From assembly GCF_019966575.1 (NCBI RefSeq), contig NZ_JAINFK010000001.1:62001-126000 (forward strand): a stretch of 64,000 bases of DNA, read 5' to 3'. Of this stretch, positions 1 through 28,689 are shown piece by piece. Below the pieces are notes generated by a model. That model searched no databases and was not told the origin of the DNA. It worked only from the letters and a program-made list of their open reading frames with translations. Each line of letters starts with the position of its first letter. The stretch's first letter is position 1. The translations under genes and the position numbers were made by a program. This stretch comes from Oricola cellulosilytica. Its GTDB lineage: Bacteria > Pseudomonadota > Alphaproteobacteria > Rhizobiales > Rhizobiaceae.

Positions 1-296
1 GGGCCGTCCGCCTGCGAGACAGCCCGCCTTGTCGCCTCCACGTTTTCGGAAGTCAGTCCGGAATGGAAGACCGGGATATAGTGGAAGGCGAGACCGAGGC
101 GCCTCGCCTCGGTCTCGATCTGAGCGGCGCCCGGCTGATCCGGCGCCTCGCCATCGGGCCGGTTGCAGATTATGACGGAAAATCCAGCGTCGGCGATCGC
201 CCGCACGTGGGCCAGCGAAATTTGCCCAGACACGGCGAAGCTTTCGCCAATTTCGCGCATATCGGCGGGGAGGCCACGATCAACTCCAGTCGTCAT
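1..296 (-). CDS. TIGR01244 family sulfur transferase (DUF442), 3' part cut by window edge
   Basis: The reverse-strand translation begins MTTGVDRGLPADMREIGESF and continues through a VSGQIS segment, IICNRPDGEAPDQPG and AFHYIPV. These match the start of the DUF442/TIGR01244 family, the phosphatase-fold sulfur-transferase domain also found at the N-terminus of Blh, a sulfide-detoxification protein. About 98 codons are visible and the C-terminal half lies beyond the left edge. The ATG at 296 has a weak AGGT upstream. The internal ATG at 260 (MREIGESF) aligns better with the usual family N-terminus, so the start is uncertain. The gene begins 38 bp after the stop of the upstream TRAP binding protein on the same strand and is probably co-transcribed with it. 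Confidence 0.75.
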   Translation of the reverse strand, partial: MTTGVDRGLPADMREIGESFAVSGQISLAHVRAIADAGFSVIICNRPDGEAPDQPGAAQIETEARRLGLAFHYIPVFHSGLTSENVEATRRAVSQADG

Positions 297-334
297 GGCT
301 TGGACCTGCTTTGAGATTTCAAGCGCGCGATCCG

Positions 335-25164: not shown

Positions 25165-26775
25165 ATGACACGCGCGACCCTCGCTGCGCTCGCCGGACGT
25201 TTGCCATTCGCCGGCGGAAGCATTCCCTCGGCGCCGAAATTCAGTTTCCCGATGCTCAAGACCGAATTACTGTCGGGACTGACCGTAGCGCTCGCTCTGG
25301 TGCCGGAAGCGGTCGCCTTCGCTTTCGTTGCCGGTGTCCATCCGCTTGTCGGTCTTTATGCAGCCTTCTTGGTGGGTCTCATCACTTCTGTCTTCGGCGG
25401 TCGGCCGGGCATGATTTCCGGCGCGACCGGCGCGCTTGCCGTCGTGATGGTTTCGCTCGTTGCCACTCATGGCGTCGAATACCTCTTCGCCACAGTGGTT
25501 CTGATGGGTATCCTGCAGGTGCTGGCCGGTATCTTCCGGCTCGGCAAGTTCATCCGGCTCGTCCCACACCCTGTCATGCTCGGCTTCGTCAACGGCTTGG
25601 CCATCGTCATCTTCCTTGCGCAACTGAGCCAGTTCAAGGTGCCGGGCGCCGACGGCTCGATGACATGGATGAGCGGCTGGCCTCTAGTGGCGATGCTCGG
25701 CCTTGTCGCGGCGACCATGGCAATCATCTGGGTGATGCCGAAAATCACCAACGCCGTTCCCGCCCCCTTGGCAGGTATCGGGGTCATCGCGGTGATCGTC
25801 ATTGCCTTCGGGATCGACGTGCCGCGCGTCGGCGACCTGGCCTCGATCGAAGGAGGCTTGCCCTCCTTCCATCTGCCGGGCGTTCCGCTAACGTTCGAAA
25901 CGCTCGAGATCATTCTGCCCTATGCAGTCATCCTCGCGGCAATCGGCCTGATCGAAAGCCTGCTCACACTCAACCTGGTCGGTGAAATCACCGGCCAGCG
26001 CGGCGGGGCTTCACGAGAATGCTTGGCGCAGGGCGCCGCGAACGTGGTCACCGGATTTTTCGGCGGCATGGGCGGCTGCGCGATGATCGGCCAATCGATG
26101 ATCAACGTAAAATCCGGTGGGCGGACGCGCCTCTCCGGCATCTCCGCGGCGATGTTTCTCTTGACGTTCATTCTGGTTGGATCGTCCGTCATTGAACAGA
26201 TACCGCTGGCTGCACTGGTCGGCGTTATGTTCATGGTGGTGATCGGTACATTCGCCTGGCAGACGCTCAAGATCATGCGGCGGATTCCATTGACCGACGC
26301 CATGGTCATCGTGCTCGTGACTGTTGTGACCGTGCTCAGCGACCTCGCCGTCGCGGTCGTCGTCGGCGTGATTGTCTCGGCTTTGGCGTATGCGTGGAAC
26401 AATGCGACCCGTATCCATGCAAAGGCGCATGTCACTCCGGAAGGGGCGCGGGTTTATCAGATCGAGGGACCATTGTTCTTCGGCTCAACGGACGGATTTG
26501 CCGAGCTCTTCAACCCTGCAGAGGATCCGGATGTCGTGGTTGTCGATTTCATGAACAGCCGCGTCGTGGATCAATCCGCATTGCAGGCGATCGAGGACCT
26601 TGCGCTGAAATACGAGGCACTCGGCAAGACGCTGACACTGCGCCATCTGTCCCACGATTGTCACCGTCTACTCAATCGCGCGGGACAGTTGATGATCGAG
26701 TCGGACGACGATCCGGAATACGGCCTGGCCGTGGATTATTCGGTGAGGACCGGTGCGTTCGGCGGCGCTCACTAG
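25165..26775 (+). CDS. SulP family inorganic anion transporter with STAS domain
   Basis: A 536-residue membrane transporter of the SulP/SLC26 family. It starts with [21 protein letters not shown] (the sulfate-transporter signature region), carries about 11-12 hydrophobic segments including [24 protein letters not shown], and ends with a cytoplasmic STAS domain from about residue 430 ([41 protein letters not shown]). SulP proteins carry sulfate, bicarbonate or related anions. The substrate is not determined, though the adjacent sulfur-related genes make sulfate or sulfite plausible. The start is preceded by ATTTATG without a strong Shine-Dalgarno. Confidence 0.92.
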
Positions 26776-26840: not shown

Positions 26841-27305
26841 TCAGGGCTTGATATAGGTGTATCCCATCTGTTGGAGCCGCGACAATTCGGCAACGCCTGA
26901 CGGGACGATATCGTCTTCCCACACTTCGAAGAGATCGGTATTATAGTCGATTTTGCGGCCAGTCAGCGTGTTGTTGCAAACACTAAAGCTAACGTTCTGT
27001 GACTTCAGGCTGGTGACGTCCATCTGAAGCTTCTCATTTGCGACCGCGTTCTTGAGCAGGCCGACGCCATTGCCATGGAGGACGACCTTGAGTTCCAGGT
27101 TGTCTGCACCCACCGCGTTGATATGATTCTGAATGTTGCGCATCGCCCCGCGATAAGCCTTGTCGTCTTCACCGCCATTGTAGTTGATGTGATAGACGAC
27201 TTTTTGTTTTCCGTACCGCTCACCAGCGCTCGCCACGGACGTCAGTACACCGGCGAGCATTGCCGCCGAGGCCACAATCGCGGCGAACTTTATCAAGAAC
27301 TTCAT
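26841..27305 (-). CDS. exported DsrE family protein
   Basis: A 154-residue protein with a Sec signal peptide (MKFLIKFAAIVASAAMLAGV, cleavage near ASAG-ERYG) followed by a DsrE/DsrF-like domain: KQKVVYHINYNGGEDDKAYR, AMRNIQNHINAVGADNLELK, VVLHGNGVGLLKNA. Cytoplasmic DsrE proteins carry sulfur on a cysteine; here only one Cys (FSVCNNTL) is seen in the mature chain. The start at 27305 is favoured by GGGAGG eight bases upstream. It lies downstream of the solute-binding/LuxR receptor gene on the same strand, with a perfect 20-bp palindrome between. Exported DsrE proteins are uncharacterised; a periplasmic sulfur-binding role is inference. Confidence 0.87.
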   Translation of the reverse strand: MKFLIKFAAIVASAAMLAGVLTSVASAGERYGKQKVVYHINYNGGEDDKAYRGAMRNIQNHINAVGADNLELKVVLHGNGVGLLKNAVANEKLQMDVTSLKSQNVSFSVCNNTLTGRKIDYNTDLFEVWEDDIVPSGVAELSRLQQMGYTYIKP

Positions 27306-27406
27306 CGGATTCCTCCCGTTTGAGAAGCGGCGTCCTCCAACGCCGCGGGAACCCAATGATTTCCTTGATGCCTACGTTCACGCTAGCTGGGGCGATGATC
27401 GGGATA

Positions 27407-27426
27407 ACCCGGGGTATACCCCGGGT
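27407..27426. promoter_or_regulatory. perfect 20-bp palindrome upstream of the exported DsrE gene
   Basis: ACCCGGGGTATACCCCGGGT is an exact inverted repeat with no spacer. It sits about 100 bp upstream of the DsrE start codon and about 20 bp downstream of the receptor-regulator stop. Its half-site TACCCC resembles the TAC-pyrimidine-rich heptamers bound by NarL/LuxR-type helix-turn-helix domains. A regulator operator for the DsrE gene, and by autoregulation for its receptor, is the leading idea. A terminator is less likely because no U-run follows. Confidence 0.6.
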
Positions 27427-27444
27427 CTGTTCGTCTTCACCCGC

Positions 27445-28689
27445 TCATGAAATGGCGTTGCTTGCCTTGCGGATCAGCTCGGCCATATTGTGGGCCTCGT
27501 ACTTCCGCATCAGGTGACTTCGATGAAATTCGACGGTTTTGGGGCTTATGCCGAGGTCACGCGCGATTTCCTTGGTGGTCATTCCGGTGGCGACAAGGGA
27601 AAGGATCTCGCTCTCGCGGGGCGTGAGCCGCACACCCTCTGCGGCAAAGGGTGCCTCCCGGTGCTCTCCGGATGTACTGTCCCGTCTCCGCGACCACACC
27701 CATCCGAGGAACGCTAGCGCGAAAACACTTCCAATCACGAGCATGTAAAGCGAAACAGGCGGCTGGCGGGCGCCTTTGCCGCCGTCACGTGCCGCGTCCA
27801 CCGTTTCGAGCAGCCGACGCACTGCGGCATCCGAAGGAACTGTTGTCCATCCGCCGTAATTGCCCAGCTTCAACGCCGGATGATGGTCGGGAAGGCGAAG
27901 CAGGGTAATGGCAACGTCTCTGCGCTCGGGCTCCGGCACATTGTCGGTAGCCGAGAATATCCACTCGGGGACCAACACCGTCGAAAGGGACAGTTCAAAT
28001 CCCGGAACCCGCAACGGATTCAAAATGCGGACATCCTCTGCTTCCAGTTCTCCGAAATTGATCGCAGCCTCGAGAATGCCCGTTCGTACAGTCCCCGCAT
28101 CGGCACGCCCTTCGAGAACCGCGTCGACGATTGCGCTCTGCGGAAATCCGAGAAAAGCTACCGATGCTATGTCGCGCCACGGGTCTACGCCGTTTCGCAG
28201 CAGCATGTCGGCTGCGATCTCGAAACCGCCGAAGGCGTCCGGCGCCACGGCTGCAAGCTTGGCGCCCTTGAGGTCGGCCAAGGTCGTAATGTCGGCGCGG
28301 TCTGATCGAACGAATATGACGGCTCCGAACCGGTTGCCGGTGCGAGCGACACCGGCCCGGTCTGTCCGCAGTGCCGCGATGGGCGACAGGCGGAACTGCT
28401 CCTCCAACCGAAAGAGATGCCCCGGATTCGTGAACAGGTAATCGATTTCGCCGTCGGCAAGGGATGAGCGTACACCGTCAAGTGACAGGGGGACGACCTC
28501 CAGATTACGCGAAATCGCTTCGGAGACAGCGTCCAGGGTCGGCTGCCAGCGCTTCATCGCCGCCTCGTCGCCGCGATGGGCCAGAATGCCCACCCTGCGC
28601 AGCGACTGTTCGTGGTCCTGAGCTGACACATGACCGATTGCGCAATTGCCGAACATCGCCAATAAGACAGCAATCGCCTGACGAAGCAT
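27445..28689 (-). CDS. membrane-anchored PhnD-like solute-binding / LuxR-type DNA-binding fusion regulator
   Basis: A 414-residue one-component receptor. Residues 1-23 look like a signal peptide. About 30-300 is a PhnD/TtrS-like periplasmic binding fold (VGILAHRGDEAAMKRWQPTL, DYLFTNPGHLFRLEE, VIFVRSDRADITTLADLKGA, AFLGFPQSAIVDAVLEGRAD). A transmembrane helix spans about 313-333 (SLYMLVIGSVFALAFLGWVW), followed by RRR. A LuxR/NarL HTH lies at 355-412 (RLTPRESEILSLVATGMTTK, then SPKTVEFHRSHLMRKY). PhnD-like domains normally feed histidine kinases such as the tetrathionate sensor TtrS; here the DNA-binding domain is joined directly across the membrane. Ligand and target are unknown. Confidence 0.88.
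   Translation of the reverse strand: MLRQAIAVLLAMFGNCAIGHVSAQDHEQSLRRVGILAHRGDEAAMKRWQPTLDAVSEAISRNLEVVPLSLDGVRSSLADGEIDYLFTNPGHLFRLEEQFRLSPIAALRTDRAGVARTGNRFGAVIFVRSDRADITTLADLKGAKLAAVAPDAFGGFEIAADMLLRNGVDPWRDIASVAFLGFPQSAIVDAVLEGRADAGTVRTGILEAAINFGELEAEDVRILNPLRVPGFELSLSTVLVPEWIFSATDNVPEPERRDVAITLLRLPDHHPALKLGNYGGWTTVPSDAAVRRLLETVDAARDGGKGARQPPVSLYMLVIGSVFALAFLGWVWSRRRDSTSGEHREAPFAAEGVRLTPRESEILSLVATGMTTKEIARDLGISPKTVEFHRSHLMRKYEAHNMAELIRKASNAIS

Follow-up and report, generated by a model that had tools for sequence, protein, structure and literature searches.

The closest described counterparts of the system reported here are the two-component pairs TtrS/TtrR and ThsS/ThsR. ThsS answers to thiosulfate and TtrS to tetrathionate, both with the same PhnD-like periplasmic domain (PMC5408782); the TtrR box is given as GTGG-N4-CCAC, an activating site just upstream of the -35 element (PMC11293645), and the ThsR operator as TATGTGGTTTACCACAAT, said to resemble the FixJ site (PMC5408782). 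In a 64,000-nucleotide stretch of the Oricola cellulosilytica genome (hereafter the window; the genome, G000, measures 3.70 Mb), we analyzed a gene encoding a membrane receptor with this kind of sensor and the next gene after it on the same strand, dsrE, which encodes an exported DsrE-family protein. The receptor shares with both pairs the PhnD-like periplasmic domain, the FixJ/TtrR class of helix-turn-helix (HTH), the operator layout, and the sulfur context, but it has neither kinase nor receiver, its sensor being joined via one transmembrane helix to the HTH, and it would therefore work without a phosphorelay. Our best reading is that a TtrS/TtrR-type sulfur-sensing pair has here been pared down to a one-component activator of dsrE that is bound to the membrane.

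ToxR, CadC, and TcpP resemble the receptor in uniting an outside sensor, a transmembrane helix, and a DNA-binding domain in one protein. In ToxR and CadC, the DNA-binding winged-helix (Trans_reg_C) domain lies at the N-terminus. A sequence-only reading of this DNA had likened the receptor to these two proteins, a comparison that holds for a one-component receptor with one transmembrane helix and fails for the domain order, which is reversed: the PhnD-like sensor is N-terminal and the NarL/LuxR HTH (GerE, residues 355-409) C-terminal, placing the receptor outside the ToxR/CadC family. As a predicted protein with both a DNA-binding domain and a transmembrane region, it nevertheless has the build of a transmembrane transcription regulator, 50,302 of which are covered by a survey whose main text, as distinct from its supplementary tables, contains none of the terms LuxR, GerE, NarL, or phosphonate (PMC10269533). 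The nearest printed parallel that we met is gonococcal Rsp, in which the PilS receptor is joined to the PilR DNA-binding domain (PMC10269533). Rsp, too, condenses a two-component pair into a single membrane protein with an N-terminal receptor and a C-terminal DNA-binding domain, but its sensor and DNA-binding family are different, it is reported to repress pilA, and the passage on it makes no mention of sulfur. Since this build is already in print and transmembrane regulators are common, we regard the receptor as a variant rather than a new kind of regulator. A literature search by title and abstract, covering mainly papers outside subscription, found no description of a PhnD-like/LuxR membrane receptor or of its link to DsrE, and queries on membrane-bound regulators, on periplasmic or exported DsrE, and on sox with LuxR and DsrE returned no account of the pair. 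Regulation of thiosulfate oxidation in an alphaproteobacterium is known from SoxR and sHdrR of Hyphomicrobium, ArsR-type repressors responsive to sulfane sulfur (PMC10451225, PMC12423496, PMC11582611); these need a transporter-like signal transducer (SoxT1B), whereas the receptor would read the periplasm directly. The sensing of external sulfur by regulators has been called poorly understood, and SoxR and sHdrR are described as served by a membrane protein that imports sulfur or transduces the signal (PMC11582611).

The receptor, the exported DsrE protein, and their pairing

Pfam, hydropathy, and AlphaFold2 agree on the receptor architecture proposed by the sequence-only reading, namely a 414-residue protein with a signal peptide, a PhnD-like domain, one transmembrane helix, and a NarL/LuxR HTH (Table 1). 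The sensor corresponds to Phosphonate-bd (PF12974, E 3.7e-34) and the HTH to GerE (PF00196, E 3.3e-21; 75.1 bits against a gathering score of 23.5), while the Pfam table of the protein contains no kinase domain and no receiver domain. Hydropathy peaks at residues 5-23 (signal) and 312-330 (transmembrane), and a third, marginal segment at 174-192 (1.65 against a cut-off of 1.6) falls within the folded domain; signal peptides were assigned by hydropathy and by eye (...ASA-G) rather than with a signal-peptide program. The AlphaFold2 model, built from a 12-row alignment with a mean predicted local distance difference test (pLDDT) score of 82.9 and a predicted template modeling score of 0.62, shows a helix at 2-21 (signal), a two-lobed binding fold, a long helix at 311-339, and the C-terminal HTH, with a poorly modeled linker at 340-351 (pLDDT < 50). 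Foldseek matched the sensor to PtxB (template modeling score by target 0.80), ArrX, PhnD, and AioX, and the top match of the receptor in a PDB sequence search was the FixJ HTH 1x3u (E 2e-18). The best NCBIfam match of the sensor was TtrS (NF040750) at 125.7 bits over residues 32-271 only, a score below the cut-off of 750. Residues T87, N88, R202, and W243 are kept in all 12 receptors found and in 49, 52, 47, and 53, respectively, of 53 other sensor domains, so that the domain is predicted to be of the TtrS type, PhnD-like with the conserved residues of TtrS-like kinases and other PhnD-type sensors. With the sensor N-terminal and the HTH C-terminal, the receptor resembles a fusion of a TtrS sensor with a TtrR/FixJ HTH. 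Position 204 is Gly in 12/12 receptors, and among the 53 other PhnD-type sensors it is Gly in 25 and Cys in 23; it may mark differing ligands.

Full-length receptors were searched for with the single sequence in a family sample (199 genomes) and with a profile at E <= 1e-30 in wider, overlapping samples of the order (297 genomes), class (385), and phylum (398); scoring was confined to the 4-9 best first-look candidates of each genome, and some receptors may have been missed. Twelve genomes including that of the window carry one, seven from the family sample and five more from the order sample, and none was found outside Hyphomicrobiales, the order of the window, in the class and phylum samples. 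Both Pfam domains are present in 12/12 receptors, as is a hydrophobic stretch that separates the sensor from the HTH (best scores 1.67-2.67), and the divergent members, at 33-65% identity to the window protein, are spread over five families of the order. A mis-joined gene, the failure that the sequence-only reading had feared together with restriction to one genome, is ruled out because the same two-domain protein recurs in all 12. A single-sequence search of the contig database found one relative, in Oricola nitratireducens (order Hyphomicrobiales, family Ahrensiaceae), at 66% identity; G146 belongs to the same genus as the window genome.

The expectation that a DsrE gene would recur as the neighbor was borne out at every receptor locus: in 12/12, dsrE follows the receptor gene with the same orientation, directly in seven and one gene further in five. 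At L105, the contig end cuts it off. The intervening gene, in 5/12 loci, is a lone SBP_bac_11 (ModA-like) solute-binding protein gene with no transporter gene there.

The window DsrE protein was confirmed by PF02635 (E 4.6e-11; 43.4 bits against a gathering score of 22.7), with its extent corrected to that in Table 1: the probable start is the ATG at 27305 (154 residues), and a longer, 171-residue open reading frame from 27356 opens with TTG. Its model (pLDDT 91.0) matches MTH1491 (1l1s, template modeling score 0.89 by target), ST0148 (2pd2), and YchN (1jx7) in Foldseek; the window protein shares their fold but differs in having a signal peptide and a link to Sox-type genomes. The sole cysteine, Cys110, is invariant in 22/22 aligned relatives and has a counterpart in 1l1s and 2pd2 by alignment, and an N-terminal hydrophobic segment is present in 11/11 receptor-linked DsrE proteins examined, the contig-cut L105 protein being left out. 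DsrE may act as a periplasmic sulfur carrier through Cys110. In the literature, DsrE3A and TusA of Metallosphaera form cysteine thiosulfonates on reaction with tetrathionate (PMC4175335), and a DsrE-family protein is located within the sox clusters of two Sulfitobacter species (PMC11034169). DsrE proteins of this kind are not unusual in the order, 80/297 genomes of which have one of this profile (E <= 1e-12). A sub-type starting YGKQKVVYHINY seems more closely tied to sensors. Among the order-sample genes whose context was read, 12 are of this sub-type: four stand beside the receptor (G000, G220, G243, G358), four beside a TtrS-like kinase/regulator pair (G209, G222, G256, G351), one has a TtrS-like kinase on a different contig (G292), and three have neither receptor nor kinase within ~7 kb, nor was either found in the genome (G259, G444, G461).

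Table 1. Positions of the receptor-dsrE locus in the window and of the solute-binding protein genes at related loci (L numbers; positions within each locus)
Feature	Position	Strand	Remarks
Window	G000:C4:62001-126000		receptor and dsrE on (-) strand
One-component membrane receptor	27445-28689	(-)	414 aa; Pfam, AlphaFold2, Foldseek, hydropathy, homologues in 11 other genomes
Receptor, signal peptide	residues ~1-24		
Receptor, PhnD/TtrS-like periplasmic domain	residues 34-284		
Receptor, transmembrane helix	residues ~311-333		
Receptor, NarL/FixJ-type HTH	residues 355-409		
Receptor-dsrE intergenic region	27306-27444	(-)	139 bp, likely dsrE promoter
Putative operator, perfect palindrome GGGGTATACCCC	27411-27422		inside 20-bp perfect palindrome ACCCGGGGTATACCCCGGGT
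DsrE-family protein with signal peptide	26841-27305	(-)	154 aa; Pfam, Foldseek, alignment of relatives
SulP-family permease with STAS domain	25165-26775	(+)	convergent with dsrE; Pfam; system membership unsure
Lone SBP_bac_11 gene, L040	1038-2024		BLAST
Lone SBP_bac_11 gene, L041	9689-10654		Pfam
Lone SBP_bac_11 gene, L042	9203-10168		BLAST
Lone SBP_bac_11 gene, L103	6910-7878		Pfam
Lone SBP_bac_11 gene, L104	3761-4930		BLAST

Regarding neighboring genes, the SulP/STAS permease gene also adjoins the pair in G146 (L038 8684-10306), with 87% identity and a different position and orientation relative to the pair. A gene for a methyl-accepting chemotaxis protein (L043 5963-8476) stands directly upstream of the G181 receptor gene, which hints at taxis toward the same signal.

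The operator-like palindrome and the sulfur setting

The region between the receptor gene and dsrE contains a perfect palindrome, GGGGTATACCCC, whose single exact copy in the genome is the one at dsrE. Its layout, and that of the pattern AGGGTATACCCT, equals the layout of the TtrR box and the ThsR operator. The 10-bp core GGGTATACCC is unchanged across three species of the nearest clade, where 54/154 columns of the region alignment are invariant. An [AG]GCT[AG] element starts 28 nt past the box center in 6/6 loci of the receptor clade of the window (the window and L038-L042, of which L041 and L042 are near copies, and L040-L042 share a looser CTAGGGTGTTTCC for which the box register was chosen by the analyst). 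Such an element lies 16 nt from the box center in L043, and none follows the box in L103, L108, L115, or L184. Read as a -10 element, it would place the box center near -41. In scans with AGGGTATACCCT (<=1 mismatch), G146 has one site and G025 one exact site, both located between receptor and dsrE. The one G222 site runs across the stop of the regulator gene preceding dsrE, and of three G181 sites, one falls within the final bases of the receptor gene. GGG-N4-CCC is present in L105 and L106.

Placement was also assessed with AGGG-N4-CCCT in 20 loci, leaving out the window, L038, and L039 (training), the near copy L042, and L118. Four of nine matches fell inside the -100/+200 region around the receptor or regulator stop, which makes up 6,020 of 251,512 bases (2.4%; p 3.8e-5, an optimistic value because the region was fixed after some sites had been seen), and two of these four lie within the receptor gene end. 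That the palindrome serves the receptor gene as an intrinsic terminator appears unlikely by eye, no terminator scan having been run, because no T-run follows it and L038 and L039 have only a short stem. A weaker second box can be made out by eye about two helical turns past the first before dsrE in L108 (~10669), L115 (~1713-1724), and L184 (~799); these loci are of the kinase type, the kinase being on another contig in the genome of L184.

The sulfur setting that the sequence-only reading had anticipated is supported by SoxB, which scores above the NCBIfam cut-off in 10/12 receptor genomes. In the family sample, SoxB occurs in 42/199 genomes, 6/7 with the receptor versus 36/192 without it (Fisher p 3.9e-4, kinship not corrected). 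Flavocytochrome c sulfide dehydrogenase (FCSD) was found in 9/12 receptor genomes, a rate that was compared with no background. In genus g35, all three loci have the receptor, solute-binding protein, and dsrE genes divergent from a cytochrome c and FCSD pair; in two of them (G034, G132), soxB, soxA, soxZ, and soxY follow within ~9 kb, which puts the receptor-dsrE set inside the sox cluster, and the third species has soxB on a separate contig. The sox genes of the window genome are on contig C10.

The proposed mechanism and its rivals

We consider it probable that the receptor is a one-component, membrane-anchored activator that reads a periplasmic sulfur oxyanion, binds the palindrome with its HTH, and switches on dsrE beside Sox. 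The TtrS-type PhnD-like domain would bind and close around the oxyanion, most likely thiosulfate or tetrathionate, which are favored because ThsS and TtrS respond to them with the same domain and because of the Sox setting. The change induced by the ligand would be transmitted via the single transmembrane helix and alter the dimer state of the C-terminal TtrR/FixJ-type HTH; the HTH dimer would then bind an AGGG/GGGG-N4-CCCT/CCCC palindrome located at the 3' end of the receptor gene or directly past it and activate dsrE, or in some species the lone solute-binding protein gene and dsrE together. For the exported DsrE protein, whose only cysteine is invariant, the probable role is to carry sulfane sulfur or a thiosulfonate in the periplasm beside Sox.

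Several observations count against this proposal. At <=1 mismatch, AGGGTATACCCT gave 9 sites in seven genomes versus 22 for the backward control, and at <=2 mismatches, GGGGTATACCCC gave 43 sites in G000 versus 91; the box therefore shows no genome-wide excess. The strict scan (<=1 mismatch) left G475 without a AGGGTATACCCT site, G000 and the receptor-less G058 have one such site each elsewhere, as others do, and the box of G000 itself departs from the AGGGTATACCCT pattern at both outer bases. AGGG-N4-CCCT was not found in the window itself, in L040-L042, or in L104-L107. GGG-N4-CCC occurs in 7/28 intergenic regions, and dinucleotide shuffles on single intergenic regions gave p values of 0.19 for the window, 0.094 for L038, and 0.16 for L039; these are unconvincing, and the case for the box therefore rests on conservation and placement. 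SoxB is lacking in two of the 12 receptor genomes (66% and 83% complete), and FCSD was not found in three (G000, G181, G475). Among the 80 order genomes bearing this DsrE, 74 are without the receptor and six have it, and G000 contains a second DsrE homologue (C4:699122-699538; L170 7120-7596) with no receptor beside it. This second gene sits between genes for DUF1236 and DctP proteins, near malate synthase. Finally, the closest solved folds of the sensor bind phosphite, methylphosphonate, arsenate, sulfate, or arsenite, so that the fold does not decide the ligand.

This last point is where the likeliest rival begins, in which the same regulator answers to a different anion, for example phosphite, phosphonate, arsenite/arsenate, or sulfite, and DsrE belongs to a stress response. 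The high Foldseek matches to PtxB (phosphite, methylphosphonate), ArrX (arsenate, sulfate), and AioX (arsenite) would fit such a ligand, and so would the SBP_bac_11/ModA-like gene adjoining dsrE in 5/12 loci; we nevertheless find it unlikely given the SoxB and FCSD context, the top NCBIfam match of the sensor to TtrS, and the responses of ThsS and TtrS to thiosulfate and tetrathionate (PMC5408782).

The position of the box bears on whether the receptor might instead be a membrane-tethered repressor freed by its ligand, or a regulator whose HTH must first be released by proteolysis. Topology alone cannot separate an activator from a repressor, the poorly modeled linker could be cleaved, and Rsp is described as a repressor (PMC10269533). 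Against this, the box center lies 28 nt ahead of the conserved -10-like element in six loci, a position suited to an activator, and the TtrR box, which sits just ahead of -35, mediates activation (PMC11293645), which leaves a repressor or a cleaved regulator quite improbable. It is more doubtful still that dsrE is constitutive and merely a hitch-hiking neighbor while the receptor controls other genes, e.g., sox or SulP, as the many DsrE-bearing genomes without a receptor and the persistence of SulP beside the pair through rearrangement in two genomes might suggest, since linkage is 12/12 across receptors as divergent as those described above and the palindrome, whose only exact G000 copy is the one at dsrE, stands at the receptor-dsrE junction.

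Two-component relatives and significance

Matches other than the receptors covered the sensor and not the HTH. Six of them were scanned for domains and comprised the TtrS-like kinases L108 and L111, a PAS/GAF/HisKA kinase (L079), two GGDEF proteins (L081, L093), and L091, a 455-residue frame in which the sensor runs into a PAS domain. The PhnD-like domain combined with GGDEF (in L081 also with EAL) elsewhere in the phylum shows this kind of sensor coupled to a cyclic-di-GMP output. Some TtrS-like kinase loci also have a related DsrE: dsrE follows the response regulator gene in 4/13 kinase loci read (L108, L111, L113, L115, among L044, L045, and L108-L118, several of which stop 0.4-1.2 kb past the regulator gene), and FCSD is also found at two of these four (L111, L113; one genus). 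The regulators of L108 and L111 scored best with FixJ and then TtrR, both under the cut-offs. A tree of 65 sensor domains places the one-component receptors in two clades of six, with support of 100/99 each; one change of form is seen in 48% of bootstrap trees, so that either one or two origins would fit.

On the simplest history suggested by these sequences, one kind of gene has two alternative controllers, the TtrS/TtrR-type pair and the one-component receptor. More tentatively, the TtrS/TtrR kinase and receiver may have been swapped for a transmembrane-linked HTH once or twice in Hyphomicrobiales, with the operator type and the dsrE target kept, giving Sox bacteria a receptor that would act directly from periplasm to DNA in response to thiosulfate or tetrathionate.

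A one-protein sensor of sulfur oxyanions would make a convenient biosensor. With a single receptor gene, a single adjacent target, and a single rare operator-like site, the direct sensing of sulfur in the periplasm becomes testable in these bacteria, and the two- and one-component versions, standing beside the same kind of neighboring gene, offer a natural series for the loss of a phosphorelay.

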